DNA of 29,690 nt from a virus: IMG/VR virus record IMGVR_UViG_3300000117_000157, positions 1-29,690 of that record; one strand, written 5' to 3'. The position numbers were made by a program, and so were the translations under genes. The stretch's first letter is position 1. Each line of letters begins with the position of its first letter. The notes under the pieces were generated by a model. It saw only the letters and a program-made list of their open reading frames with translations. It was not told where the DNA came from and did not search any database. Shown here in pieces: positions 3,081 to 29,263 of the stretch.

Positions 3081-4190
3081 CTACTTGTTTACCAAGACAA
3101 AATTAAATTTAGATGTGAATTTGCAATTTTCGTAAACCGTGTTTTGGCCAAGCACTAAGTGTTCAAAATAATTTTCGTAATACTTATAAATTCTTTCTGG
3201 GTCAAAGTTTTGTGTGGCATACGCTCTTGCTGTACGAGGGTTAATTTTGTCGGAAAGCAATACGGCATGATAAAATTCATTTATAGACTTACATCTGAAT
3301 CCTGTTACCCCGTGAAGATTATATTCTGCCATGCCGCCCCAATCTGTAGATATAACTGGAGTCCCACATAGCATAGCTTCGATCATTGTCCAGCCGCAAG
3401 GTTCAGAATACAAAGAGGGCATTAACATGGCTTTAGCTTTTGAAAGCAGTTTTGCTCGTTCTTCGAAACTTACAGTATGTATAAATTCGCTATACTTACA
3501 ATCTTTATCTAGCGAATTGCGCATGTTCTGCGGTCCTACAAATTTTATTTTAGTTTTTAGTATTTGAGCTAATTTTTGAGCCACCAAAACACCTTTAGTG
3601 TCTACCATTCTTCCTAAATAAATTAGGTAATCGTCTTTTTTTTCGCTAAGAGGAAAATCATCTTTATCAAAAGAAGGGGGGATGACTTGATCAGTCCATT
3701 TAGGGCATTTTTCTCCATATTTTTGCAAGATGGTGTGCATATGAGTGTAGCTTTCAAAAACCCTATTGGGAGCAAAACAAGAATCGTATCCGATACTAGG
3801 CTCCACAATGTACCCCTTATTGATTTTTTCTGTCGTTTTTTTGTGCCCGAAACCCCAAAACGCTAAAATCATATCGTTTTCATTTTGAAATGTTTGATTT
3901 ATGAATTTGACAGCATTTTGATTGAACTCTTCGTGGGTTTTATTTTCAACATCTTCCGAATTAAACTCTTTCCATGTTTGATGCCCGTAATCTTTTTCAT
4001 AAGTAGCCCTTGAAACAACATCAAAATGCTGCGTGCAATTCACTTCGGAATCTGGATGACCGTAGTGATATACGGTATGACCTCTTTTTGTCATGTGCTC
4101 ACAAAACCTGTAAACCTTTTGAACGAACGGTGAAATCGTAATTTCCTTACGGGTGGGGTAAGATGGAATTGAGAGGGCATGAAAAACCAT
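3081..4190 (-). CDS. GT4-family (GT-B fold) glycosyltransferase
   Basis: The 369-residue product matches retaining GT-B glycosyltransferases of family GT4. The N-terminal acceptor half begins with MVFHALSIPSYPT and a helix ending in HMTKRGHTVYHYG. The C-terminal nucleotide-sugar half has YLGRMVDTKG (191-200), KFVGP (217-220) and the EX7E signature EPCGWTMIE with E263 and E271. This is followed by AMLCGTPVISTDWGGMAEY, the usual donor-binding loop. Reaction: transfer of a sugar from a nucleotide-sugar donor. The acceptor is unknown; it could be host surface polysaccharide, a virion protein or modified DNA bases. It is a single gene divergent from phoH, and its leader lacks a good GTGTA element (weak match TGATAATAT). 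It has no signal peptide, so it is cytoplasmic. Confidence 0.88.
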   Translation of the reverse strand: MVFHALSIPSYPTRKEITISPFVQKVYRFCEHMTKRGHTVYHYGHPDSEVNCTQHFDVVSRATYEKDYGHQTWKEFNSEDVENKTHEEFNQNAVKFINQTFQNENDMILAFWGFGHKKTTEKINKGYIVEPSIGYDSCFAPNRVFESYTHMHTILQKYGEKCPKWTDQVIPPSFDKDDFPLSEKKDDYLIYLGRMVDTKGVLVAQKLAQILKTKIKFVGPQNMRNSLDKDCKYSEFIHTVSFEERAKLLSKAKAMLMPSLYSEPCGWTMIEAMLCGTPVISTDWGGMAEYNLHGVTGFRCKSINEFYHAVLLSDKINPRTARAYATQNFDPERIYKYYENYFEHLVLGQNTVYENCKFTSKFNFVLVNK

Positions 4191-14295: not shown

Positions 14296-15450
14296 ATGAA
14301 TATTACCCTTAAAAGAACCGATGAACAAGTCGAATTAATCAAAGCTATGGCTTCTCGCAACAGAGATGTTGCTTACGCTGCCCAAGTTGCTTTGGCCGAA
14401 TTTATTGGTCCAGTTTTAGCAGAGGTTATCAACAATGCGCCGACGATTAGTAATTTATTTACTCCTCTTCAGTATAATTCTGATGACAATCCGTCTATTC
14501 CTTTGGATCTTTATCACGACATTTTTGACGAGGACTATATCAAAGTTTACAGTCAGTCTGTGGCTGGTGGTCTTCCTACTAACTATGTGCAGCCAACTGC
14601 TGCCGAGTTAAAGTTTACCACTTACACCTTAGACTCCGCTGTCTCTTTTGATCGCAGATACGCTTCTCGTTCTCGTTTAGATGTAGTTGGAAAAACTTTC
14701 ACTAGAGTAGCACAGGAAGTTTTATTGAAACAGGAAAGAACTTCTGCTAATTTAGTCTTAACTGCCGCAGCTAATGCTGCAACTGGTAGTGACTCTTATA
14801 GTGCGAAGAATCGTCATATTTTCCGTACAGCTCAGGCTAATAGATTATTATTGGATGATTTAAATAAGTTATTCACTAAAGCTAAAAGAATTAATGCCTC
14901 ATTTGTTGGTGGTACTCCTAGCGGAGCTCGCCGTGGCATAACTGATCTTTTGGTTTCTCCTGAGGTTGTGGAAAGCATTCGTGCTATGGCTTACAACCCA
15001 ATCAATACTTCAGCACCTAATGGTGCCGCTGTTCAGGCCACCTCTCAGCCTATTGCTTTGAGTGATAACGTAAGATCTCAGATCTTCTCACAAAGTGGGT
15101 TGACTGAATTTTATGGTGTTTCTATCATGGAAGTGTTAGAAATGGGTATCGGCAAGAGATTTAATACGATCTTTGATACTGTCGCTGGAACTACGGATTA
15201 TTTAGATCATGGGTCTACTACAGCCTCTAGCGCTTTCAATGGTGCAACTGAAGAGGTTATTATTGGACTTGATCGTAGTCGTGACGCAATGGTTCGTGCT
15301 ATTGCAGTTGATTCAGATACTGGTTCTGAGTTTAACTTGGTCGCTGATGATCAATTCTCCTCTAGACAGCAACGTATAGGTTACTATGGAGCTTTAGAAG
15401 AGGGCCGCATGGTTCTCGACAATAGAGCTTTAGTTGGCTTAATTATGTAA
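14296..15450 (+). CDS. Major capsid protein
   Basis: A 384-residue protein following protease-scaffold and decoration genes, with the strongest ribosome binding site in the window and its own strong terminator. The sequence has features of HK97-fold coat proteins: a helical N-terminal arm (QVALAEFIGPVLAEVINNAP, TISNLFTPLQYNSDDNPSIP), a long spine helix (VGKTFTRVAQEVLLKQERTS), and a PSGARRGITDLLVSPEVVES..RAMAY stretch typical of the A domain. There is no long N-terminal delta domain, which fits scaffold supplied by the separate upstream gene. Identification rests on context, size and fold pattern together. Confidence 0.87.
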   Translation: MNITLKRTDEQVELIKAMASRNRDVAYAAQVALAEFIGPVLAEVINNAPTISNLFTPLQYNSDDNPSIPLDLYHDIFDEDYIKVYSQSVAGGLPTNYVQPTAAELKFTTYTLDSAVSFDRRYASRSRLDVVGKTFTRVAQEVLLKQERTSANLVLTAAANAATGSDSYSAKNRHIFRTAQANRLLLDDLNKLFTKAKRINASFVGGTPSGARRGITDLLVSPEVVESIRAMAYNPINTSAPNGAAVQATSQPIALSDNVRSQIFSQSGLTEFYGVSIMEVLEMGIGKRFNTIFDTVAGTTDYLDHGSTTASSAFNGATEEVIIGLDRSRDAMVRAIAVDSDTGSEFNLVADDQFSSRQQRIGYYGALEEGRMVLDNRALVGLIM

Positions 15451-15477
15451 CCGCACTAACCAAATTCATTATGAATA

Positions 15478-15508
15478 CCTCGCCTCCATCTGGGGGCGAG
15501 GTTTTTTA
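15478..15508 (+). terminator. Rho-independent terminator after the major capsid gene
   Basis: A 7-bp stem CCTCGCC/GGCGAGG (15478-15484 with 15495-15501) with a 10-base loop is followed by six T's. It lies 27 bases after the capsid stop codon. Confidence 0.93.
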
Positions 15509-15543: not shown

Positions 15544-15942
15544 ATGACTCAACGCAAAAAGAAAACCAGAAAAAAGGTCGCCAACCTTGATGAGCTTGAA
15601 AATTTTTCAAGCGGCAAAATAGAAGACGAATCTATTAAGAAAACAAAGGAGCTAGAAGAGGTAATGGGGCTCAAAACGATGAATCATTTTGGCACAAATG
15701 ACCCTGATGTTTTTGAGCAAAAATTATCGGATTGCAATTTAGCAGATTTACAAAGATTATGCCAAAAGGTTGGCATTTTCCCTAGTCATGATAAGAGCAG
15801 GTTAAAGGAGCAGCTTAGACAAACATTCAAAAGGACGACAAAGGGTTCGAGAAGTGTAGTGTTGCAGCAGGAAGTGGATATTCTGCATCCTGATCATCCT
15901 GATCATGCGAAGGTTAAAAGAATTCTTACAGACGGATTTTAA
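15544..15942 (+). CDS. Small SAP-like protein of unknown function
   Basis: A 132-residue protein with a strongly basic N-terminus (TQRKKKTRKKV) and an acidic/charged middle. Residues about 60-97 (LSDCNLADLQRLCQKVGI..SRLKEQLRQTF) have the two-helix pattern of SAP or LEM-like nucleic-acid-binding motifs. A basic stretch and a small HPDHPDHA repeat follow. Lying after the capsid terminator and before the inverted neck/tube block, it may be a head-associated or DNA-binding protein. No family is assigned firmly. Confidence 0.65.
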   Translation: MTQRKKKTRKKVANLDELENFSSGKIEDESIKKTKELEEVMGLKTMNHFGTNDPDVFEQKLSDCNLADLQRLCQKVGIFPSHDKSRLKEQLRQTFKRTTKGSRSVVLQQEVDILHPDHPDHAKVKRILTDGF

Positions 15943-16003: not shown

Positions 16004-16018
16004 AAATTTAACAACAAA

Positions 16019-16046
16019 AAAGCCCCCTTTCGGGGGCTTTTCTTTT
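16019..16046. terminator. Bidirectional terminator between convergent blocks
   Basis: A 9-bp stem AAAGCCCCC/GGGGGCTTT (16019-16027 with 16032-16040) with a TTTC loop has T's after it on the + strand (CTTTTTT) and an A run before it, so it can work on both strands. It sits between the + strand head block and the - strand tube gene ending at 16060. Confidence 0.93.
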
Positions 16047-16059
16047 TTATGTTAATTGT

Positions 16060-17487
16060 TTATGTCGAGGGCGTAATTCCTGCGGCCAATTGGCTCAGTT
16101 TATTTTCACCTAGAGGGTAGGATCTTATACACCTAAATAAGTTATAGCTTCCGTTCATTATAAGGCCGCTATTGGTATCATTAGCTCCACCGATTTGAAA
16201 CGAGAATGTCAAATCTGCTGTTTGGTTATCTCCAATAGCATTAGAAATACTTTGACTCTCTAGTCTCGCCCCTTTGATTTGGAACTGAACATCGAATGCT
16301 CCTGCCCCAGTGACCGCTGATCCAGTAGATGGGTTGCAAGCATACAAGCTCAATGTCATATTGAGTGTTTCAGCGTGACACAGTTTATCAAATAAGTTGA
16401 TCTTATTATACTCAGAAACAATAGTTGATACTGTAACCTCACCGTTTAAAGGTAAGTCAACAACCCTTGCATAACCAAAGGTGTTGCCTAGTCGGCCTAG
16501 TACAGTGCGAGACATAGGCACATTCAAGGTGAAACTTTGTATATGAGCTTTTCCATCTCCGTTTGTGACAACGATACCGTCATTACTATTTGGAATCTCC
16601 AAGCTTATATCTCCCGGGCGCAAAGCCGAAGGAGTACCATTTGTCCCGGTGGTATTTATAGCTAAAGTACTGTTCGCATCTTCTTCTCCTTGAATAATGA
16701 ATTGTGGTGCTGTGCTAGGGGAAGAACCGTCTCCCGTAGAGTATAGACCTGCCGATGTAACCGAGGGTACAAACGGAGCGAAATGACTGCTATTTGTAGG
16801 AGGGTAAGTGCTATTGACAGCTGCGCCGGATATAACATTGTCGACTTTCATATTGAAAGCTTCAACGGTTACAGACGCCGTAGGGATAGCCCCAACAGAG
16901 GCCTCTACCGTGTAGTCGCTTATAAATCCGTTTCCGATACCAATAACATTAAATATTCCGCTTGAAGCTGTTTTGTCAGAATTATGAAGATCTAATCCAT
17001 CTTCATTAGTTACAATTAGATAATTGTTACCTTGGTTATCTTCGATTAACCCAGATAAAGCGCTAACCCCAGTGTAGCAGGCGTCGCTAGAATTATACAA
17101 GGCCGAATCCCTGTTCGCTATTTTGTTAGTGGGTATATTGAAACCCATTTTTCTTTCGTTCCCTCCGTCAGTTAAGTAATAACTAAAATCTAAACCAACA
17201 GTGGGCGACTCCATTGCTATAGAATCAATTCTAGCTAATTTGCCAAATTCATTAATATCAGTTCTGTTGATTGCAAAGTTGAAATTAGCATTTTGGACCC
17301 TAGAGATGGGCATCGTCAAAGACCTTAAATTATAATTTGAAGTTAAGTCTTCCAATCCTGTTATATTGCTCCAAGTTACATCTGTAGTAGAGTCATTGCC
17401 GCCGTTGCTTTCTTGAAGGCAGCAGCCAGTTGACCCCGGAGAAATAAACAGCGCTTCACTTTGATAAATTATTCTGTTTCTTGCCAT
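16060..17487 (-). CDS. Tail tube-like protein, paralogue 2
   Basis: A 475-residue close paralogue of the next gene upstream (17527-18927). Both start MARNRIIYQSEALF and share NFNFAINRTDINEFGKLAR, YYLTDGGNERK, GNGFISDYT, PMSRTVL.RLGNTFGYARV and SNAIGDN. Two halves of the protein resemble each other: R..I..FGKLAR..SI and GFISDYTVEASVG in the first, R..L.RLGNTFGYARV and ARLESQSISNAIG in the second. This suggests two fused tail-tube domains, as in T5 pb6. A C-terminal SYNLFR..RSYPLGENK segment is common to both. AGAAAGA 7 bases upstream is a ribosome binding site. It is the last gene of the minus-strand cassette. The tube assignment is by pattern and gene order. Confidence 0.72.
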   Translation of the reverse strand: MARNRIIYQSEALFISPGSTGCCLQESNGGNDSTTDVTWSNITGLEDLTSNYNLRSLTMPISRVQNANFNFAINRTDINEFGKLARIDSIAMESPTVGLDFSYYLTDGGNERKMGFNIPTNKIANRDSALYNSSDACYTGVSALSGLIEDNQGNNYLIVTNEDGLDLHNSDKTASSGIFNVIGIGNGFISDYTVEASVGAIPTASVTVEAFNMKVDNVISGAAVNSTYPPTNSSHFAPFVPSVTSAGLYSTGDGSSPSTAPQFIIQGEEDANSTLAINTTGTNGTPSALRPGDISLEIPNSNDGIVVTNGDGKAHIQSFTLNVPMSRTVLGRLGNTFGYARVVDLPLNGEVTVSTIVSEYNKINLFDKLCHAETLNMTLSLYACNPSTGSAVTGAGAFDVQFQIKGARLESQSISNAIGDNQTADLTFSFQIGGANDTNSGLIMNGSYNLFRCIRSYPLGENKLSQLAAGITPST

Positions 17488-17494
17488 TTTGTAT

Positions 17495-17501
17495 TCTTTC
17501 T
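17495..17501 (-). promoter_or_regulatory. Ribosome binding site AGAAAGA of tube paralogue 2
   Basis: On the minus strand AGAAAGA lies 7 bases before the ATG at 17487. It belongs to the same class as the sites before the capsid and zinc-ribbon genes. Confidence 0.5.
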
Positions 17502-17526
17502 ATTTTAAATTTTACAGTTATTAACC

Positions 17527-18927
17527 TTAACCTGTGTAGGACCCGTCTATACCCTTGTTTTTCCCTAATGGGTAAAAAGGCAATGTCCTAAATAAAGGGT
17601 AACTTCCGTATATAAACAACCCATTGGCTGTGTCTTTTGCTCCTCCAAGTTGGCAGCTAAAAGTCATATCCACAGTTTCATTATCTCCTATAGCGTTAGA
17701 AAAAGTTTCGCTATCTAATCTAGCGTTTTTTATTTCAAATTTAATCTTACTTGACCCTGCTTGACCTGTGCTGTGATTGCAGTCTTTAAGATCAAGAGTA
17801 AAAGTATGTTTTTGCGTGTGGCAAAGATTATCGTACAAGTTAAATGCGTTATTTAATTCTGAAACGATTGCAGAGATAGATACTTCTATATTTAAAGGTA
17901 AGTCTATAACCCTTGCGTAGCCAAAAGTATTACCTAACCTTTGCAGGACTGTTCTAGACATTGGTACAGATATCGTCATACTTTGGATATGAGCTTGGCC
18001 GTCGCCATTTAAATCAGCGATACCGTCATAAGCGTTTGCGTCACCTATAGTTAAAGTTATATCTCCCGGACGTAAGGCTGCAACATTACTTGCTCCTGAT
18101 ATATTTAAAGGGTTGCCTACAGCTTCAGATCCTTGAATGAAATATTCCTGTGTCGAATTAATAGAGCCATTTTCGATGTTGACCCAAGGTGATATAGGCG
18201 ATGTGCTTGCGTTTCCTGAAGCGGTATCTTCAACTTTAATGTTGAAAGCTTCAACAGTAGCTGATGCTGTAGGTATAGAGCCTACCGCAGCTTCAATTGT
18301 GTAATCTGATATAAACCCATTTCCAATAGAAACCACATCATATTCTGTTTGGTAATTACTGCTTTTCACAGAGTTTGATTGGACATCTTTACCTTCTTTT
18401 GTTACCAAAATAAAATAATTGTTTCCTTGGGGGTCTTCTATCAAACCCGAAAGTGCACTATACCCGGACAAAGCTAAATCTCCAGTACTGTAAGGGGTGC
18501 TATCACTGGTTCTTCCGCCGTCTTTGCCGTCCAAGGCTGACGTTGGGACATTGAAGCCTAACTTTCTTTCGTTACCCCCATCAGTCAAATAGTAATTGAA
18601 ATCTAACCCAACTGTCGGGGACTCCATTACGATAGAGTCTAATCTTGCCAACTTACCGAATTCATTAATATCTGTCCTATTAATTGCGAAATTAAAATTA
18701 GCAGACTGAATTCTTTCTAGTGGCATAGTTAAAGACCTTAATTTAGGTCCAGAAGTGTAATTGGGCGGTTCCCATTCTGTAATTCCCGTCCAAGTAGTAC
18801 AGCTATGATCATCTAATACTAATAGGGTATCAGCTCCATCGTCACCCCCTTTTTGCAAATGATAACCAGTTGAACTGGGGGAAACAAAAAGGGCCTCGCT
18901 TTGATAAATTATTCGATTTCTTGCCAT
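17527..18927 (-). CDS. Tail tube-like protein, paralogue 1
   Basis: A 466-residue paralogue of 16060-17487, arranged in tandem 39 bases apart, evidently from a gene duplication. Long identical blocks cover the N-terminus, the first tube-like core, the ALSGLIED.QGNNY loop and the second core. The divergence is concentrated at residues about 18-60 and in the linker between the two cores (about 230-290), where loops probably face outward. One paralogue may form the main tube and the other a distal or decorated form; which is which cannot be told. The leader has TTGTAAATTTAACATTT but no clear ribosome binding site or exact GTGTA element. Confidence 0.72.
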   Translation of the reverse strand: MARNRIIYQSEALFVSPSSTGYHLQKGGDDGADTLLVLDDHSCTTWTGITEWEPPNYTSGPKLRSLTMPLERIQSANFNFAINRTDINEFGKLARLDSIVMESPTVGLDFNYYLTDGGNERKLGFNVPTSALDGKDGGRTSDSTPYSTGDLALSGYSALSGLIEDPQGNNYFILVTKEGKDVQSNSVKSSNYQTEYDVVSIGNGFISDYTIEAAVGSIPTASATVEAFNIKVEDTASGNASTSPISPWVNIENGSINSTQEYFIQGSEAVGNPLNISGASNVAALRPGDITLTIGDANAYDGIADLNGDGQAHIQSMTISVPMSRTVLQRLGNTFGYARVIDLPLNIEVSISAIVSELNNAFNLYDNLCHTQKHTFTLDLKDCNHSTGQAGSSKIKFEIKNARLDSETFSNAIGDNETVDMTFSCQLGGAKDTANGLFIYGSYPLFRTLPFYPLGKNKGIDGSYTG

Positions 18928-18991
18928 AATATTTTAAATGTTAAATTTACAATAATTTACAGCTTTTGCTTACATTTGAGAAATTTTATAT

Positions 18992-19849
18992 TTATGATCT
19001 AGGAAACCTGTATTTATGAATTTCAAAATCTATAAACCCAACGTACAAAGATGGTTCTAAAACTTTTTTGATTCTGTCGGAAAACTTAGATACAACAGTA
19101 TTGTCTATTAAGTAAATGTCGTTTGGGTAATTGTTTGCTAAGCCAGTGTAATTATAGCCGTTAGGGTATTGAGCTGTTTTTATATCCCCGTATTCATCAA
19201 GAGGGACTCCTGTGAAAGGCACGTTAGCAAAAACTTCTTTATTAGAATCATTAAAAACGGATAAGATTCCATCAAGCTCGTACATATTTTCAGCAAAAGC
19301 AACAGCTTTACCTTGTGCAACAGTGTTATCTTCACCCCCTAAGGCGAAAGGTTGATTATTTAAGCTTTCGATAGATAAAAATGCAGCAGGGGTTACTTGA
19401 TCGTAAGGCTTTATGTAACTTAAGGTTTTAGTATACCTGCTATTACTTTCATATTTTCCCTCAAGTATTAATTGTTCTTCATTTTGATTTGATATATATG
19501 TGTTGAAGTTTTTTACGCTATATGTCCCACTTACGCTGGAACCAGTTGGGAACCCCTCGTCGAACAAAACTCTTCCGTTCTCATAATCTATAATTAAACC
19601 GCTTTGCCCTCTTGCATACTCAATTCCGTCACCGCTCACAGATTCAATCACAACAGCGCCGTCAATAGACTTATCAGTGACAAACTGTTTGTAAGGGCTA
19701 CCGAAAACAACCTTATCAGGGAACCTTGTATCTGGATAATAATAAAAGTTACTGGTGAAAGTTTCATATGCCTCGCCTTTTCTCATTAAGTATGAGTCAA
19801 ACCATAAATAAAAGCTACTAAGTAATTGATGTTGAAAAACAGGTTTCAT
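18992..19849 (-). CDS. Neck/tail completion protein, candidate tail terminator
   Basis: The 285-residue product begins MKPVFQHQLLSSFYLWFDSY and continues with beta-rich sequence (GQSGLIIDYENGRVLFDEGF, SGTYSVKNFNTYIS). Its ATG overlaps the stop of the 205-aa gene by 4 bases (ATGA), so translation is coupled. I do not recognise a family. Its place between the gp10-like protein and the tube genes is where siphoviruses encode the tail terminator/completion protein, though it is longer than most of those. Confidence 0.6.
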   Translation of the reverse strand: MKPVFQHQLLSSFYLWFDSYLMRKGEAYETFTSNFYYYPDTRFPDKVVFGSPYKQFVTDKSIDGAVVIESVSGDGIEYARGQSGLIIDYENGRVLFDEGFPTGSSVSGTYSVKNFNTYISNQNEEQLILEGKYESNSRYTKTLSYIKPYDQVTPAAFLSIESLNNQPFALGGEDNTVAQGKAVAFAENMYELDGILSVFNDSNKEVFANVPFTGVPLDEYGDIKTAQYPNGYNYTGLANNYPNDIYLIDNTVVSKFSDRIKKVLEPSLYVGFIDFEIHKYRFPRS

Positions 19850-20463
19850 TTTGAGTATTTATCTTCTAAATTTTTTATATTTTTATAATATTCTTGCAGT
19901 AAGGGCGATAGATAAGACGTATTTAAGAACTTGCTTGACCTTATTTTTCTTTTGGTCTGTATGCCTTCCCCGGATCTTGATTTTGCTGAATCAGAGGTTA
20001 TGTACATACCGAAACCCGCCAAACCCGTTTCCATCGCTTTAACCCAAGATCTCCCCCTAGCCCAAGGTAGCGGTGTTGCGTCGTATATTTCATCTTTTGT
20101 GGGGACTATTATCTTGACTGTCGTATAGCCTTTTCTGCTTATGATTTTTATTTCATATTCCATTAAAATTGCTTTTAGGATTTTGATAGGCCGCTCATTA
20201 TCGTAAAAACCTATAAAACCAAATAAATTAGAATACCCTAATAGTGTTCCGCTAAGATTGTACCCATCTGGCCCTAAGCTAATCTCTTTAGATATAGGAT
20301 GACTCAAAACAGCTTTTATGAATTTATTTCGAATAGAGGCCATTGACCTTTCAACTCTAGATCTTACTGTTTTTTTCCATTGGGTCGTCAAATGCAATTT
20401 ATTCAGCTCCGGCATTACATAGAGCTTCATTAAATCTCTTTTGTTGTAGATTCTTGGGGCCAT
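19846..20463 (-). CDS. Neck protein, candidate HK97 gp10-like
   Basis: A 205-residue basic protein (MAPRIYNKRDLMKLYVMPEL, KKTVRSRVERSMASIRNKF) ending in a helical tail (STSYL-like LNTSYLSPLLQEYYKNI). Mixed alpha/beta, no membrane segment. Its start codon shares one base with the stop of the 150-aa gene. It lies second in the cassette after a connector-sized protein, the position of HK97 gp10-like or head-closure proteins. The assignment is by position and size. Confidence 0.55.
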   Translation of the reverse strand: MAPRIYNKRDLMKLYVMPELNKLHLTTQWKKTVRSRVERSMASIRNKFIKAVLSHPISKEISLGPDGYNLSGTLLGYSNLFGFIGFYDNERPIKILKAILMEYEIKIISRKGYTTVKIIVPTKDEIYDATPLPWARGRSWVKAMETGLAGFGMYITSDSAKSRSGEGIQTKRKIRSSKFLNTSYLSPLLQEYYKNIKNLEDKYSK

Positions 20464-20915
20464 TATTGGGATGATTTAACAAAAAACGTATAAAATTGAA
20501 CATCAAATAAACCATGCCCACGAAAATCGCTATCGATAAAGTACACACCGTTATCGAACTCTAATCTTAAAGCGTCTTTTGCTACTTCATAATCATTAGC
20601 TTTTATTTTTAGCCTTATTTTTCCTTCTTGCATTTTTATTTTTAACTGAGAATCAGCTTCAGTATCTGAAAAGTAATCCTCATCAAAAGACTTGTTGTAC
20701 ATGATCCTAGCGTAAATTTGTGTTGATTGCGGAGTATAAATTATACTCGTTGTAGCACCTGCGTTACCATAAATAGAATTAAAAGATGCGCTTGGTGTTG
20801 ATATGGTTTCCTTGGCCCTTTTGTAAACAGTAACCAGCCTAGCAAAAGTATCATGCTGATCACTCATCACACTATTAAGCGCACTTTTTTCTGCTGATGT
20901 TATTAAGCTTGCCAT
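20463..20915 (-). CDS. Candidate head-tail connector/adaptor protein
   Basis: The 150-residue product has an N-terminal helix (LITSAEKSALNSVMSDQHDTFARLVTVYKRA) followed by beta strands (IYTPQSTQIYARIMYN, KIRLKIKANDYEVAKDALRLEFDNG, VYFIDSDFRGHGLFDVQFYTFFV). The size and the helix-then-beta layout fit head-closure or adaptor proteins. It is the first gene of the minus-strand neck/tube cassette, with a good GTGTA element 17 bases upstream. Confidence 0.6.
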   Translation of the reverse strand: MASLITSAEKSALNSVMSDQHDTFARLVTVYKRAKETISTPSASFNSIYGNAGATTSIIYTPQSTQIYARIMYNKSFDEDYFSDTEADSQLKIKMQEGKIRLKIKANDYEVAKDALRLEFDNGVYFIDSDFRGHGLFDVQFYTFFVKSSQ

Positions 20916-20934
20916 ATGAAAATAGTATACACTT
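20916..20934 (-). promoter_or_regulatory. GTGTA-type promoter-like element of the neck/tube cassette
   Basis: On the minus strand AAGTGTATACTATTTTCAT directly precedes the ATG at 20915; spacing from the first G of GTGTA is 17 bases. It lies in the 70-base divergent gap with the tail block. Confidence 0.55.
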
Positions 20935-20985
20935 TTTAAAGTTTTTTTAGAAAATTGCGATATTTTATTTAATATTTATAGCCAT

Positions 20986-21765
20986 ATGTTTAAACAAATT
21001 TATTCATTTACAATTCAAAGCGAAAAAGAAGTTGAAAAGATCACTAAAAAAGTCATGAAAAATGACGAGGGTGTGGAGGAAGAGGTGGAGGTTAAGAAGA
21101 AAGTGAAGGAAAAATACCCTATAGAATTCTTAGTTAAAAAGCCTTCCCGAAGGCAACTGGAGGAAGCTGACACTGAATATTCAATTGCAATGAGCCAATC
21201 CATCAAAAAGGGCATTTTGACAAAAGCTATGTTAGCTAAAAAGTATGCTGATTCAGGTGGAGCTTTAACAGAAAAAGATGCACAAGAATTATTAGATAAC
21301 TATAAGAAGCTGAGTGATTTAGAGCAAGAGGTTACAAGGATGGCTATATCAGGGTATGATGAAAAAGACATCGATCAAAAAACCAAAGCTAAAAAAATCA
21401 ATGATGAATTAGCCGTAGTTAAGCGGCAGATTGTGGATTTAGAAACTAATTATCAAACTATTTTTGCTCACACCGCAGATATTAAAGCTCAGCAAACTGC
21501 GGTTTTATGGTATTTACTTCACCTTACTTATGTTCAGTATGACTTAGGCGGTTCAGCCAGCCCAAGTTTATATTTCGAAGGCAAAACATTCCAAGATAAG
21601 CTGGATAACTACTATGAAAAAGATGAGGCTGCTGATGAGATATTTAATGAGGTTATAAACAAACTTACTACAATCATCAGCTATTGGTATTATAGCGGAG
21701 ATAATTTTGATGAAGCTCAAGTTGCCGCCTTGGTTAAATCTGATTTAGATGAAACAGAAGAGTGA
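20986..21765 (+). CDS. Tail assembly chaperone-position protein 1
   Basis: A 259-residue protein with a Lys/Glu-rich N-terminal region (VEEEVEVKKKVKEKYPIEF), long helices (SRRQLEEADTEYSIAMSQSI, KLSDLEQEVTRMA) and an acidic C-terminal end. Two such genes directly before the tape measure gene is the standard place for tail assembly chaperones (lambda gpG/gpGT). It overlaps the next gene by 17 bases. I see no slippery site of the usual -1 type. The leader has no exact GTGTA element (A/T-rich GATATTTTATTTAATATTTA). The function is by position only. Confidence 0.65.
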   Translation: MFKQIYSFTIQSEKEVEKITKKVMKNDEGVEEEVEVKKKVKEKYPIEFLVKKPSRRQLEEADTEYSIAMSQSIKKGILTKAMLAKKYADSGGALTEKDAQELLDNYKKLSDLEQEVTRMAISGYDEKDIDQKTKAKKINDELAVVKRQIVDLETNYQTIFAHTADIKAQQTAVLWYLLHLTYVQYDLGGSASPSLYFEGKTFQDKLDNYYEKDEAADEIFNEVINKLTTIISYWYYSGDNFDEAQVAALVKSDLDETEE

Positions 21766-22735
21766 TGTCAACTACAGGGAAATGTTTAGAGATATTGTTT
21801 TCGGATATTCTGAAATAGAATTCCAAAATAAAACATTATTCATTAAGCATTTGTCTGTTTTTGATCAAATACATATTGACGAATTACGAAACAAATTTTT
21901 ATCTGCTGCAAAAAAAAGAGGTATCCCTACTGAAGAAGATTATTTAATCTATCTTAAGGAGAATGATATATGGACCTCACAAGATGAAAACGAATTAAAA
22001 GAAAAAAGTAAATTTTTAGAGTCTTTGCACGTAACCAAGAAAAGTTTATATTTATCTTCTGAGATTGATAATATCAACAAACAAATAACTGATGCTGAAA
22101 AAAACCTAATAAATGTAAGGTACAAAAAGCTTCAATTAATGACGGAAACTTGCGAGTCTTACGCAGACAAAAGAGTTTCTGAACATTATGTGTTTTTATC
22201 TTTCTACAAGGAAAAGGGCCTCATAAATAGAGAGTTTTGCGAAGAAGAAGTGGACGAGCTTTCGAAGAATGAAATGCTTGAACTCGTAAATAAGTATAAT
22301 TATAAATACGAAGTCTTCAACGATCTTAATATACAAAAATTAACATTGGAAGAATTTTTCTCAATGTACAGGCCGTTTTGCGAAAGTATCAGCGATTTTT
22401 ACAATAAAAGTATATTTTTATTATCTACTCACCAACTAAAACTTATAGTCTACTCAAGAATGTTTAAAAGCATTTTTGAAAATTACCCTAAGATCCCTGA
22501 CCAAATCAAAAAAGACCCTGATAAAATAATTGATTACGTTAACGCTCAAGATAAAGCTAAGACTACCTTGAAAAATGTAGATAGAGATGGAGCATCTACA
22601 ATTGTCGGGGCGAAAGAGTCTGATTACGATAATTTAGGTGTTGGAGCAAACAAATCTCAATCACTATCAGATATGTTAAAAAGCCACGGCGGCAAGATGG
22701 ATATGAAGGATTTAATGAAAGCAATGAATAAATAA
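21749..22735 (+). CDS. Tail assembly chaperone-position protein 2
   Basis: A 328-residue, mostly helical protein (MKQKSDVNYREMFRDIVFGY, SSEIDNINKQITDAEKNLIN) with an acidic/Lys-rich body. It ends in a low-complexity tail with SLSDMLKSHGGKMDMKDLMK. The ATG lies 17 bases inside the upstream gene, with a TAG in its own frame immediately before, so it is a separately initiated gene rather than a long frameshift product. Positioned just before the tape measure gene, it is probably a chaperone that keeps the tape measure soluble. Confidence 0.65.
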   Translation: MKQKSDVNYREMFRDIVFGYSEIEFQNKTLFIKHLSVFDQIHIDELRNKFLSAAKKRGIPTEEDYLIYLKENDIWTSQDENELKEKSKFLESLHVTKKSLYLSSEIDNINKQITDAEKNLINVRYKKLQLMTETCESYADKRVSEHYVFLSFYKEKGLINREFCEEEVDELSKNEMLELVNKYNYKYEVFNDLNIQKLTLEEFFSMYRPFCESISDFYNKSIFLLSTHQLKLIVYSRMFKSIFENYPKIPDQIKKDPDKIIDYVNAQDKAKTTLKNVDRDGASTIVGAKESDYDNLGVGANKSQSLSDMLKSHGGKMDMKDLMKAMNK

Positions 22736-22772: not shown

Positions 22773-25700
22773 ATGGCTATTAATATCCCTGCGAATATAG
22801 ACCTCAAGGTTAGCGGCTCTAGGCCGCTAGGTAAATTGAGTGGAGATTTGAATCAATTTGAAAGTTCGTTACGTGCTGCAAATGCCCGTGTATTAGCTTT
22901 CGGCGCCTCTACAGCCATTATCGCCAGTCTCACTAAATCCTTTAAAGATTTAGCCTCTACCACTATTCAAGTTCAAAAATCTTTTATTGATATTAATCGC
23001 ATTTTATCTGTAACAGATTCCACTTTTAGTAAATTCGGAGCGGATGTTTTCAAGATAGCTAAGCAAACTGCTACCGGTTTTGACGATGTAGCCAAGGCTG
23101 CTTTAGAATTTTCTCGTCAAGGTTTAAGCGTTGAGGAAGTATCCAGAAGAACCGCTGACGCCTTAACTCTAGTTCGATTGACTGGTATAGGTGCTGAAAA
23201 ATCAGTAAGCCTTTTGACTGCGACGGTAAACGCTTTTAATAACCTAGATACAACAAAAGCTGTTAGTAAATTTGTAGCGGTAGAAACCCAGTTCGCTGTT
23301 GCAGCATCTGACCTTGTTGAAGGTTTAAGTCGAGTAGGCTCAGCCGCCACTGATGCAAAAGTAAGCTTTGATGAGCTCAACGCCTTAGTTACTGCTGTAC
23401 AGCAAACAACCGGTAGGGGTGGGGCAGTGATTGGTAACGCTCTAAAAACTATATTTACCCGATTGCAGCGGCAAAGCACATTGGAGCAATTAGAAAGATT
23501 TAATATAGGTGTTCGAGATATAGAAGGTAATATTTTGCCTGCTGTTAGAATATTACAAAATTTTGCTAAAGCTTATGATGGTTTAGCTGATTCAACTCAA
23601 GCTTATTTAAGAGAGCAAGTCGCTGGAGTTTTTCAAGCGAACAATCTTTCTGCTATACTTAAAGATTTAAATAAAGAGCAATCTGTTACAGCTAAAGCTT
23701 TAGAAGTTTCAAAGAATGCTACCAATGAAGCTGCTTTAGCTAATGAAAAATTAAACAGAAGCTTAAGCGCATTATTAGCACAATCTTCTACGGAAGTAAC
23801 ACAATTACAAGCAAACATTGGTAAGATAACTTTTGAACCACTCGCAACAAGCATCACGAAAGCTTTTGTAGATAGCTTAGAGACGATCAATAAACTTATA
23901 TCTACTCCAACTAAAGAATTGGAAACGGGAGGGGAAAAGCTTGGCAGTACTTTGGGCAAAGGTGTACTGAAAGGCTTGTCTAATTTAGTTTTACCTGCTG
24001 CGGTGGGCATATTCGGCGTCTTAGCGGTAGTCGCAAAAAGATTTTTAGGGGACTTAAGGTCAGCTATACCGGCGTATTTAGGTTTGCAAACTCAAGCCGC
24101 AAAAAGATTAACTTTAGAAAAACAAATAGAGCAGACATTAAAGAGTCAATTATCCATAACGCAACAGCAAGCAACATCTAAAAAAGGAACTGCCTTTACT
24201 ATTCCTGCCGCAGGGATAATGGCATCAGATATGAGCGCCGAATCAGCGGCTCAAATAGCCTCTCAACGTGCAGCGCAAGAAATTCAAAAAAGAATATCGT
24301 TAGGCGGCGCAGGTTCTGACACTGGCATGGTTAGCACTTTTGGAAATGTTGCGGGCAGTAGAGTCGGCGGATCTATGAAAATGGACCCTTCTCAAATAGG
24401 AAACTTTAGAAATGAGGCTAACAATCTAGCTGCTCAATTTGCTGCGACTGGAGGAAATGTGACAGATTTTGGGAAAAAAGTAAAGACTATAGCCAAGAAG
24501 TTTGGGGTTAACGCTATAAAGTTAAATAGCGAAATAAGAAAAGCTGCACAGGTTGACTTATCAGGAGCTATAAGCAAGTCCAATAAGGAATTCAACGATA
24601 TTAAAAATAAAGCTCAGAAACTAGCTGGAAAAATTAGTTTAGGTGAGATGTCAGCAAAGCAGGGTGCATATGAGATGAGGGAGTTTGCTTTGAACTCTAA
24701 TCTTTCTGCCCAGCAAGCTGGCAAACTTGCAAATACAATGATGCAGGTTAATCAAGCCGCCAATCAGGCAAAAAGTAAAATGTCAAGACTGGGCAATTTT
24801 CTTTCCAGTGGTTTAGGGCAAGGACTAGCTTTAGGTCTGCCTATAGCTGCAGGAATTGCAGATCAAGTAATTTTTGGAGATAAACAAAGGACTGAACTCG
24901 GGCCAAACCAGAGAACCATCAAAGGCGCTTTGTCAAACACAAATCAGTATGCAGGTTCGGGGGGTGCGATTGGCGGGATGATAGGGTTTGGCGTAGGTGG
25001 TCCCGCCGGAGCAATGGCGGGAGCTGCAATAGGAACTGTGGCGGGAACTATAGCTGGTCTTGGGGCGGCTGTAATGAATGCTAATTTAAGTTTAGATGAA
25101 TTAGCTCAGGTAACAGACGAGTACACCAGCAAAACTAAAGAGGACGGTAGTTTAGCCAATCAGTACATAGAAGCGGTTAAAAAGTTGAACGATCCATCTT
25201 TAAGTGAGCATTCTAAAGTAGAAGCCCAAAGAAAATTTCAAGAACTTTTAGAGAAAGTTAGCAAAAGTGATTTGCCGGAGAGGTTTAAATCAGCAGGCAG
25301 GAATGTAACTGAGCTAGCTAGCTCGCTTAAGTTTTATGAAAAAGAACGCCGCAGAGGAGAAGTGGTTCGGGGGTTGGGAATCAAAGGGAGTCAACTGGAA
25401 TTGCAAGAAACTTTTGCAACAACATCTTCTATGGGGGCTGGCACAGGATCGGCAGCGCCACCAGTTGTAACTTCGAAAGCATTCACAGAAGAATCTTTTG
25501 ATTCTATAGTTCCGGCATTTGGGGAATTTTTTAGATATTTTGCTGATAAAAATGGTGAAATATCTAAAGAAACTCAGGAAAAATTAAATAAAATAATGGC
25601 GCAGGCCAATAGTTATATTTTTGGTTTCAATGAAACAGGTGCTGCAAGGGAAATACAGAAAGCTTTTCCAGATGCAATCGGGCTAGGAGATATCGAGATG

Positions 25701-28337
25701 CTAACTCAACAATTTAAAAAATTCGAGAACGATGAATTGCTGGAGTTATTTCGAAAAGCATCCAAAATAGTCGAAGAATACAATGTTCTTTTGTATGGGG
25801 AAGCTCCACAGGCCGAAGCGTTACAAAGAAGTTTGATTAAAACTAAGCAGCGATTAACATCCATAACAAGGGAAAAAGGTGCGGCCTCTTTTGATCAGAA
25901 AATTAGAGATAGCTATAACGAAGTGTTATCGAGTATACAAGAGCAAATATCTGCAGATTTACAATTAACGTCAGAGCAACTTGTAAGAAATCGTTATTCA
26001 AATCAAGTATCTCAGCTAAGCCAAAAAAGATCTCAAGCAGAAGCCTCATTTAGTCTTAAGAATATTTCCGGATTGTTGGGCGCTTTTGATCAGGCGAAAT
26101 TTACTCAGAGCGACCCTGCATTACAATCTTACGGTAGTGCAATGACGGATTTTATATTGAACCCGGACCAAGCTTTAGCTGATCTAAGAGAAGATTTATC
26201 CAAAGGCATTTTTACTGGTGAAGATATAACTAAATTAGAAAATTTTGTTGCAGACCTGTCTGAAACAAGGAGGCAAGAGTTAGAAAACTTAAATTACGAA
26301 GAAGCAGTTTTAAAGGCTAGACATGAAGTAGAGCTTCAAAGAGCGAAAAACAACGATAGATTGGCTACTCTAACCTTCCAAGAAAAATCTAAGCAATTCA
26401 ACCTACGCAAATCTCAATTGGAGCAAGCAAGACCTTTACAGAGAGAATTATCTATACTTGCAAGTGAAAAATCTTTGGTTTCAGGGTCCCGTACTCTTGG
26501 TGAAACCGAAAAATTTAGAGAGACTCAAAGATTAAACAACGAGATGTTTGAGAAACAAAAGCAAATAGACAAAGCCAATGAAGATTTTCAGCGAGGTATG
26601 TTTGATGCTGAGAAAAGCTACGAAAGGCAAAGATTGCAAGTCGAGTTGAGTATGGCAAATGCTCAAATAGAAGCGCAGAAAATTTTAACTAAAGCTTTAG
26701 GTAATCTAGCTGAAGTTATAGCTAATCCGTCTGCCATCATTGAGCAAGCTAAAATGAAAGCATTGGCTGATAGCGATACAAGATTTGCATCCGCTTTTAA
26801 ATCAGAAACAGATGATGATAAAAGAAAAGCCTTGAAAAAGGCGAAAAGAGAGGAGCAAAAATCAATAAAAGCTAGATATTCTGAGCTTCAAGAAACAACA
26901 GGTTTTTCTTTGTCTAAAAACAATTCATCTGGCGTAGCCTCTGGATTCAAAAGTATTTCTATTGATATAAGCGAGGCCTCTTTGGAGATGCAGAGGTTCA
27001 ACATTTTGACGGAGCAAGAAAGGAAATTGCTTGTGCAAACTTTCGGTGAAGATGGGACAGACGCTTTGCAAAAATTCGTGATCACCGCAAAACAACTAGA
27101 AGATGCATTTTACCAAGTAAGGGGAGAAGGGTCGCTCACAAGAGGTTTAGAATCTGGCTTCAAAACCATAAGGGATGATGTTGATACATTTAGATTTGAA
27201 TTAGGGGATCGAGTTCCCACTCTTTTTGCCGACAATATGACTAACGCTCTTAATCAAGCTATGGATGGCGCTGAAAGTTTAGGCGATGCTTTAAGAGGGG
27301 CTGCTACAGGGTTTTTAACGGAAATAAGAAATCAATTAACAGCTAATTCTGTCAAAGGTTTAATGTCGGCTTTTTCAGGTAACACTATTAATGTTTCTGG
27401 GTCTACTAAACAAAAAGGAGGCTTTATTCATGCCCAAAATGGCATGTATATCTCTGGCACTAGAACAGGGGACCGTAATCCTGCGATGCTTGAAGACGGA
27501 GAGTATGTATTAAACAGGAATGCTGTTAAAGCTTTAGGCGGTCCAGCCTCAATAGATCAACTTAATTTCGGAATGGCTCCAAGGTTTCAATCTGGAGGGT
27601 CTGCATTTATAAACGAAAAAGTGGGAAGCTCAAGATTAAGCGGTTTATTTTATGCTTCTGACAGTCCTGAGCTTCAAGAGGCTAGAGACGCAGCAAGAGC
27701 AAGGGATCAAAAACGTGAAGCTAAAAAAGCGCAACGTAAACAGCTTAAGAATGCTCTAATAAGCACTTTGGTTATGGGTGCATTTAGTGGGGCAAGTGGG
27801 TATATAAGTAATAAAGGTGGTTTAGGGGAAATGTTTAAAAAGAATGGCAATCCCGTAGATGAAGGAGACTCCTTATACAATCCTTACTCTATAGATAAGG
27901 ATCAATCTGGAGGTTATATAGGCAGAGGGTTACGAAACGCAGATTCTATACCCGCTTTTATGTCCGGCGGGGAATTCGTGATGAATAATAAAGCTGTGCG
28001 TAAATATGGTTTAGGATTAATGAATAGATTGAACGGAGGATATATACCCGCTTATCAATCTGGAGGATCGGTTGCTGAATCTCCTGCGTCTACATTAGGC
28101 TCAATGGGTGGAGCAAATACTAATAACATTAGTATTAATATCAATATGGGTCAATCTGGAGGAAGCGCATCCGAAGGAGGGTCCACTTCGTCGCTTGGCA
28201 ATCGCCAAGATGGAGGGGATCAAAGCTCAAATGCAGAAGAATTTTCTAAGAGGATTGAGTCTGCAGTTGTGAAAGTCATACAAAAAGAACAAAGAGTTGG
28301 CGGACTTCTAACGGACGGCGGCAGAAAGAGTAATTGA
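22773..28337 (+). CDS. Tail tape measure protein
   Basis: The 1854-residue product is a tape measure protein. Residues about 1-320 match the phage tail tape measure domain (TQVQ-like helices, FDDVAKAALEFSRQGLSVEEV, TGIGAEKSVSLLTATVNAF, TTGRGGAVIGNALKTIFTRL, LREQVAGVFQANNLSAILKD). A hydrophobic segment lies near 398-421 and a Gly/Ala-rich membrane-like stretch near 728-768. Long coiled coil covers about 1170-1320. The C-terminal 300 residues carry repeated glycine motifs: GGFIHAQNGMYISGT..AMLEDGEYVLNRNAV (about 1549), GGYIGRGLRNADSIPAFMSG (about 1713) and GGYIPAYQSGG (about 1755). It sets tail length and may reach the host inner membrane at DNA ejection. Confidence 0.93.
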   Translation: MAINIPANIDLKVSGSRPLGKLSGDLNQFESSLRAANARVLAFGASTAIIASLTKSFKDLASTTIQVQKSFIDINRILSVTDSTFSKFGADVFKIAKQTATGFDDVAKAALEFSRQGLSVEEVSRRTADALTLVRLTGIGAEKSVSLLTATVNAFNNLDTTKAVSKFVAVETQFAVAASDLVEGLSRVGSAATDAKVSFDELNALVTAVQQTTGRGGAVIGNALKTIFTRLQRQSTLEQLERFNIGVRDIEGNILPAVRILQNFAKAYDGLADSTQAYLREQVAGVFQANNLSAILKDLNKEQSVTAKALEVSKNATNEAALANEKLNRSLSALLAQSSTEVTQLQANIGKITFEPLATSITKAFVDSLETINKLISTPTKELETGGEKLGSTLGKGVLKGLSNLVLPAAVGIFGVLAVVAKRFLGDLRSAIPAYLGLQTQAAKRLTLEKQIEQTLKSQLSITQQQATSKKGTAFTIPAAGIMASDMSAESAAQIASQRAAQEIQKRISLGGAGSDTGMVSTFGNVAGSRVGGSMKMDPSQIGNFRNEANNLAAQFAATGGNVTDFGKKVKTIAKKFGVNAIKLNSEIRKAAQVDLSGAISKSNKEFNDIKNKAQKLAGKISLGEMSAKQGAYEMREFALNSNLSAQQAGKLANTMMQVNQAANQAKSKMSRLGNFLSSGLGQGLALGLPIAAGIADQVIFGDKQRTELGPNQRTIKGALSNTNQYAGSGGAIGGMIGFGVGGPAGAMAGAAIGTVAGTIAGLGAAVMNANLSLDELAQVTDEYTSKTKEDGSLANQYIEAVKKLNDPSLSEHSKVEAQRKFQELLEKVSKSDLPERFKSAGRNVTELASSLKFYEKERRRGEVVRGLGIKGSQLELQETFATTSSMGAGTGSAAPPVVTSKAFTEESFDSIVPAFGEFFRYFADKNGEISKETQEKLNKIMAQANSYIFGFNETGAAREIQKAFPDAIGLGDIEMLTQQFKKFENDELLELFRKASKIVEEYNVLLYGEAPQAEALQRSLIKTKQRLTSITREKGAASFDQKIRDSYNEVLSSIQEQISADLQLTSEQLVRNRYSNQVSQLSQKRSQAEASFSLKNISGLLGAFDQAKFTQSDPALQSYGSAMTDFILNPDQALADLREDLSKGIFTGEDITKLENFVADLSETRRQELENLNYEEAVLKARHEVELQRAKNNDRLATLTFQEKSKQFNLRKSQLEQARPLQRELSILASEKSLVSGSRTLGETEKFRETQRLNNEMFEKQKQIDKANEDFQRGMFDAEKSYERQRLQVELSMANAQIEAQKILTKALGNLAEVIANPSAIIEQAKMKALADSDTRFASAFKSETDDDKRKALKKAKREEQKSIKARYSELQETTGFSLSKNNSSGVASGFKSISIDISEASLEMQRFNILTEQERKLLVQTFGEDGTDALQKFVITAKQLEDAFYQVRGEGSLTRGLESGFKTIRDDVDTFRFELGDRVPTLFADNMTNALNQAMDGAESLGDALRGAATGFLTEIRNQLTANSVKGLMSAFSGNTINVSGSTKQKGGFIHAQNGMYISGTRTGDRNPAMLEDGEYVLNRNAVKALGGPASIDQLNFGMAPRFQSGGSAFINEKVGSSRLSGLFYASDSPELQEARDAARARDQKREAKKAQRKQLKNALISTLVMGAFSGASGYISNKGGLGEMFKKNGNPVDEGDSLYNPYSIDKDQSGGYIGRGLRNADSIPAFMSGGEFVMNNKAVRKYGLGLMNRLNGGYIPAYQSGGSVAESPASTLGSMGGANTNNISININMGQSGGSASEGGSTSSLGNRQDGGDQSSNAEEFSKRIESAVVKVIQKEQRVGGLLTDGGRKSN

Positions 28338-28339
28338 TT

Positions 28340-29263
28340 ATGTCAAAAAACGCATCACCAAGTTATGAGCACATTTTTTATGTTAATGGTACGGGAATCT
28401 CTGGTATAAGGGATTTAGATATCAGTTACAGTGTTTCTCGTAATCCTATCAGCGCATTAGGAGTTGGCCATATACAGCCTAGTTTGTCGGACGCTATACA
28501 AGGTGAGATTAGTTTTACTAGGGACTTAATCTACGAAGATCCACTGTTCGCTTTGACAGGTGACCAGATGGTCAATGGTACTTTGATTTATGCTGCAGAT
28601 TTAGAAGAGTCAAACGGTCAAGTGATAGGTTTCACCTCTGGTTATTTAACCAGTTATAATACAAGAGCAACCGTTGGAGATGTTCCTACAACGCAATGTA
28701 GTTTTGCAGTTTTCGGCCAATTAGGCAGTGGCGTAAGAGAAGGTGAATTGGATTATTCGGGTATTCACCCATTACCTTCAATTAAATTTATAAATCAGGG
28801 CTCTATAATTCTGAATGTGGATCAAAGCGAAACGAATAGAATAATGTCTTATGATCAACAATATACAATGGAAAGAGTTCCAATATATGACCTAAAAGAG
28901 AAAGCAAGTCAGGATTATTACGCACCTACTCAAGTTATAAGTAAAACCCCTATTTCTGTCACTACTAATTTCGTAGTAGAAGTCGATGATTTTCATACGG
29001 CAAACATGATGGACAATACTAGAAGCGGAGTGTACCGGGATTTAGATCTATATATTAGGCAAGTAGATAGATCAAATGAAGGGTTAAGAGATGAAACTGA
29101 AGCTTTTTTAAGAGATGACAATAACGAAATACTAGAAGATGCAGGAAGGGTAACCGTATTTTCATTTGACCCTATTTCTGGAAATTTAATATCAGAAAGT
29201 GTAACTACTTCTATAGACGGAGTGTTAACTGTAGCTTTAGGATTTCAAAACTATTTAAAATAA
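28340..29263 (+). CDS. Tail-tube-fold structural protein (distal tail-like)
   Basis: A 307-residue protein. The ATG at 28340 is preferred to the TTG at 28334, which lies inside the tape measure stop region. GYLTSYNTRATVGDVPTTQ matches GFISDYTVEASVGAIPTAS of the two tube paralogues, and VSRNPISALGVGHIQPSLSD matches their INRTDINEFGKLARIDS. A second, weaker pair (ERVPIYDLKEKASQ..PTQVISKTPISV and SGNLISESVTTSIDGVLTV) suggests a second tube domain. It follows the tape measure gene, the position of distal tail or tail-tip hub proteins. A role as a tube cap or distal ring is inferred. Confidence 0.65.
   Translation: MSKNASPSYEHIFYVNGTGISGIRDLDISYSVSRNPISALGVGHIQPSLSDAIQGEISFTRDLIYEDPLFALTGDQMVNGTLIYAADLEESNGQVIGFTSGYLTSYNTRATVGDVPTTQCSFAVFGQLGSGVREGELDYSGIHPLPSIKFINQGSIILNVDQSETNRIMSYDQQYTMERVPIYDLKEKASQDYYAPTQVISKTPISVTTNFVVEVDDFHTANMMDNTRSGVYRDLDLYIRQVDRSNEGLRDETEAFLRDDNNEILEDAGRVTVFSFDPISGNLISESVTTSIDGVLTVALGFQNYLK

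Follow-up and report, generated by a model that had tools for sequence, protein, structure and literature searches.

The stretch of DNA analysed here (the window) spans an entire IMG/VR viral contig, 29,690 bases long. Its left part carries, in order on the plus strand, PhoH, TerL, the portal, a protease, a decoration-position protein, the major capsid protein (MCP) and the conserved gene g15544. These are followed by a run of five minus-strand genes, TubeB, TubeA, g285, g205 and g150 (16060-20915), and the plus strand resumes with g259, g328, a 1854-aa tape measure and a 309-aa gene. The ORF listing agrees with the coordinates at which the initial annotation had placed five minus-strand genes inside a plus-strand late cluster. 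The features of the locus are:

14296-15450, plus strand: MCP, major capsid protein by position, head module, flank of the block
15544-15942, plus strand: g15544, left neighbour of the block, conserved in relatives
16018-16041, no strand: putative bidirectional terminator hairpin AAAAGCCCCCTTTCGGGGGCTTTT at the convergent junction, with T-rich tails on both strands
16060-17487, minus strand: TubeB, 475 aa, second tail-tube paralogue by homology to TubeA, last gene of the block
17527-18927, minus strand: TubeA, 466 aa, tail tube protein with a T5 pb6-like fold (AlphaFold2 with Foldseek/VIA)
18992-19849, minus strand: g285, 285 aa, conserved neck-position protein, possibly a tail terminator (position only)
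19846-20463, minus strand: g205, 205 aa, conserved neck-position protein, possibly a tail completion protein (position only)
20463-20915, minus strand: g150, 150 aa, first gene of the block, possibly a head-closure or stopper protein (position only)
20916-20985, no strand: divergent intergenic region of 70 nt at the right breakpoint, which in the window's subclade holds no "small" gene
20922-20937, minus strand: late-promoter-like motif AAAAAGTGTATACTAT, a family motif reading into g150
20986-21765, plus strand: g259, chaperone-position gene, right neighbour of the block, conserved in relatives
21749-22735, plus strand: g328, chaperone-position gene, conserved in relatives
22773-28337, plus strand: TMP, tape measure protein (ORF and motif), with a late-promoter-like motif upstream at about 22752

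No tRNAs or Rfam families were found within the window. A strong terminator-like hairpin lies between MCP and g15544 (15477-15502), and the left arm holds a phrog_3704 match annotated as ferredoxin (1795-2463), an outer-membrane-like protein (1035-1751) and a glycosyltransferase-like gene (3081-4190).

The two genes at the left end of the block had initially been read as tube proteins. For TubeA, this reading is supported by an AlphaFold2 model of moderate quality (pLDDT 66.8, pTM 0.74), which matches 9iny_A in Foldseek (E 3.9e-9) and reaches VIA Z scores of 16.7-17.1 against T5 and P74-26 tubes over residues 6-444. The predicted fold is thus of the T5 pb6 type over most of its length and resembles both T5 pb6 (PDB 9iny, 5ngj) and the P74-26 tube (8ed0), although identity to these tubes is at most 12%, the tubes here often occur as two tandem paralogues, and their relatives are uncultured. 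TubeB is 59% identical to TubeA and, by this homology, probably shares the fold. The number of tandem paralogues, one or two, differs among close genomes, and their middle regions are very variable (window 16060-18927 and relatives L012, L018 and L152). A short conserved segment links the 309-aa gene behind TMP (28334-29263) to the tube family (hhalign E 3e-4). The profile of this 309-aa gene instead hits a tube-adjacent gene in many canonical genomes. Four relatives (L152, L153, L155 and L156) carry an extra plus-strand tube-like gene upstream of PhoH, outside the late cluster, that is about 35% identical to TubeA.

The other three block proteins had been named connector, gp10-like and terminator-like, and neither sequence nor fold searches confirmed these names. 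The block proteins gave no usable match in Pfam, PHROGs or PDB sequences. A high-confidence AlphaFold2 model of g205 (pLDDT 87.9) found no significant counterpart in the PDB or BFVD; a few of its insignificant BFVD rows are named neck or HK97-gp10, at most a hint. In the g150 family search, one of 46 relatives matches phrog_161 head closure, at an E-value of only 0.038. The g285 protein is conserved in both gene arrangements described below and had no family or structure match. By position, g150 may act as a head-closure or stopper protein, g205 as a gp10-like tail completion protein and g285 as a tail terminator.

Comparison of gene order and strand among relatives, which the initial annotation had proposed as a check, returned two main arrangements, and that of the window recurs. 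Canonical relatives, which came from scans with the g205 and g285 profiles, carry on one strand TerL, portal, protease, decoration-position protein, MCP, g15544, med (an adaptor-position protein), g150, g205, g285, Tube, small, g259, g328 and TMP. The inverted order reads med(+), Tube(-), g285(-), g205(-), g150(-), small(+), g259(+), so that the flipped segment between med and small is exactly g150-g205-g285-Tube. The prediction that flipping the block back would restore the canonical order therefore holds: natural relatives show just that order. Since med and small have homologues in both states with unchanged orientation, the breakpoints fall between med and the block and between the block and small; they are identical in the main inverted clades. 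Relatives with identical gene content are collinear and the flanks are conserved, as an in-place inversion implies. The window's subclade lacks both med and small at the breakpoint positions; med was not found in the window or in seven nearby contigs, all of them fragments.

Among 77 dereplicated genomes, 45 are canonical, 30 are inverted and two (L206 and L325) show a third arrangement, med(+), g328(-), g259(-), small(-), g150(+), g205(+), g285(+), which equals the inverted state with block and chaperone genes flipped together. It occupies 6264-9387 in L206 and 7396-13334 in L325, on different head backgrounds. In L217 and L227 (contigs of 200 kb and 62 kb), the neck is flipped without the tube, and the tubes and med are relocated behind g328.

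The window is a single metagenomic contig, and an arrangement of this kind could in principle arise from misassembly or a chimera. The same arrangement occurs in at least three close contigs of other metagenomes and extends through a wide clade around them: contigs L001-L005, all from other metagenomes, share it locally at 83-95% protein identity, and relatives with an MCP identity of only about 60-75% still show it. Because independent contigs share the arrangement, we consider an assembly artefact to have a negligible chance of being the explanation. Hardly more credible is a phase-variable element flipped by a site-specific recombinase. The block does look like a discrete invertible unit and occurs in both orientations within the family, but orientation is uniform inside every close clade, and promoters and terminators are arranged differently in the two orientations. 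Paired inverted repeats, which the initial annotation had suggested looking for, were not found at the block ends in the window.

The signals concerned lie at the two junctions. At the left end, where a bidirectional terminator had been proposed, the hairpin at 16018-16041 has equivalents in other inverted genomes: a hairpin with a T-run on both strands occurs at 42 of 43 gapped convergent junctions, against none in shuffles, and its sequence varies among clades while its structure is kept. No terminator was found at the junction in nine inverted genomes in which the convergent genes abut or overlap (L018, L023, L024, L028, L029, L152, L155, L156 and L225).

At the right end, we relied on a motif of the family itself. 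Sigma-70 type consensus promoters were no commoner than in shuffles, so the family's own motif, RGTGTAWWW, which lies shortly upstream of many of its late genes (portal, protease, med, TMP), was used. Among 24 inverted genomes, 18 have it ahead of g150, versus none of 45 canonical ones, with expected counts below 0.5; the window's own copy ends in AC and falls outside the strict pattern. In canonical genomes, the g150 start lies mostly -4 to +18 nt from the med stop, a tight coupling with no regulatory remnants. The proposal of new regulatory sites is supported by the restriction of the g150 motif to inverted genomes together with the conserved junction terminator. The motif supports the divergent promoter gap of the initial annotation in one direction only: towards g150 the motif is frequent, but in the plus direction, towards g259 or small, it occurs in just 2 of 24 genomes. 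Degenerate plus-direction versions are visible by eye in the window's clade, and a promoter reading that way must presumably exist.

By its signals, the flipped block would form a separate transcription unit. The initial annotation had gone further and suggested independent control of head, tube and tail-tip production, a reading that we regard as only half supported. The signals agree with a unit of its own, but the motif before g150 is the same as that before portal, protease and TMP, and a motif common to several late genes gives no indication of separate timing.

To trace the history of the inversion, we compared trees of the head genes with those of the neck and tail genes, all inferred with quick or fast searches. 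The two sets disagree. For g150, g205, g285, the tube and the combined chaperone genes (g259 and g328), each tree requires just one change between states, and a concatenated neck tree splits inverted and third-kind genomes from canonical ones with an SH-aLRT of 100. The head-gene tree of the 77 dereplicated genomes needs five state changes; single-gene trees need three for MCP, four for portal and three for med, with AU p-values of 0.06, 0.05 and 0.06, respectively. Placing the three main inverted groups and L206 in one clade on the head tree is not rejected (AU p 0.39), whereas adding L192/L217 (AU p 0.011) or L325 (AU p 0.008) to the inverted clade is. With the head genes of L192/L217 and L325 outside the inverted clade, either recombination or independent inversions are needed.

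Several independent inversions, in the main clade, in L192/L217 and in L325, at junctions that tolerate or favour flips, would account for the three to five changes on the head trees and for the rejected groupings, and the tubes of L217 do lie outside the flipped block. We nevertheless find this account improbable, given that a single change divides the states on each of the neck, tube and chaperone gene trees, with strong support in the concatenated neck tree, and that the main clades share their breakpoints. One change on each of these trees argues for a single origin of the inverted necks. The best reading is a single inversion in the history of the neck and tail genes, probably followed by exchange between lineages of head modules that end with med; such later exchange would explain the few discordant genomes. 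The ancestral inversion put forward in the initial annotation is supported by these results, in that un-inverted relatives exist and the trees of neck, tube and chaperone genes each place the inverted state on one branch.

The direction of change was probably from canonical to inverted, because tail genes are generally collinear, the late regions of the isolates Stahl and MaeS are collinear, and midpoint rooting of the head tree puts a canonical clade at the root. A TerL tree rooted with isolate outgroups was discarded as unusable, with branch lengths near 10. It follows that no usable outgroup fixes the root, and state counts cannot separate gain from loss, which leaves some room for an inverted ancestor from which the collinear genomes arose by one re-inversion. 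We judge this very unlikely: collinear tail genes are the general rule (PMC9022992) and are also found in Stahl and MaeS, g150 is tightly coupled to med in canonical genomes without regulatory remnants, and a canonical clade lies at the midpoint root. In inverted genomes, the coding-strand GC skew of g150, g205 and g285 falls about 0.08-0.11 below the canonical values, with differences of at most about 0.05 in flanking genes; this drop fits long residence on the opposite strand and is confounded with phylogeny.

Taken together, we are confident, short of certainty, that the locus reflects a fixed, ancient in-place inversion of the g150-g205-g285-Tube operon, with regulatory signals gained, in aquatic tailed phages with T5-like tubes. 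Gene order in the ancestor would have been collinear, with g150 translated directly behind med. Inversion would have moved the operon to the opposite strand, where it needs its own transcription start and stop. The flipped operon would then have gained a late-class promoter before g150, and it and the oncoming head transcript would use one bidirectional terminator. Judging from the signals, transcription may proceed as three units, head (+), neck/tube (-) and chaperone/TMP (+), and the flipped operon is presumably transcribed from an active promoter.

A more speculative reading, to which we give limited credence, is that the inversion acts as a recombination barrier, much as chromosomal inversions do in animals and plants. 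Head modules would still pass between the two lineages, whereas neck, tube and chaperone genes would have diverged together as a locked block ever since the flip. Such a barrier would show itself in head trees that disagree with neck/tail trees.

The late gene order of tailed phages is often taken as near-invariant, and positional annotation builds on it. The family described here has a probably ancestral, a flipped and a rarer further-flipped state with matched genes. It thereby offers a natural experiment: does assembly depend on gene order, and which new regulation must an essential operon acquire once it is flipped? A strand switch within a structural cluster is by itself no evidence of misassembly. 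Alignments of both states are now available for a large uncultured lineage, including neck-position proteins without a known family.

Tail gene order has been described as conserved between phages (PMC9022992). Compared with the canonical siphophage late order (capsid, neck, tube, chaperones and TMP on one strand), the gene set and positions here are the same, but the neck/tube part runs on the other strand and has a promoter motif and a terminator of its own. We found no direct precedent for inverted structural modules in the open-access literature, which is weak evidence of novelty. The Microcystis siphophage Mic1, with structural genes in three regions (PMC7156551), is likewise a long-tailed phage whose structural genes do not form one run; its regions are dispersed, whereas here the inversion is in place and both states are known. 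Slashvirus Stahl and Microcystis phage MaeS are among the closest isolate relatives by TerL (26-27% identity), and unlike the window they have all late genes on one strand. TubeB, MCP, g205 and g285 had no match in isolate phages, and a TerL identity of 26% over only 58%, with no shared structural genes, does not place the window among Slashvirus or SPbeta-like phages. The inversion is real, fixed and old, with acquired regulatory signals, in a lineage that has no cultured relatives in the collections searched. By binning only, contigs of four relatives (L322, L323, L324 and L325) are associated with Verrucomicrobiales, Halobacteriovorax, Flavobacteriaceae and Neomarinimicrobiota MAGs.
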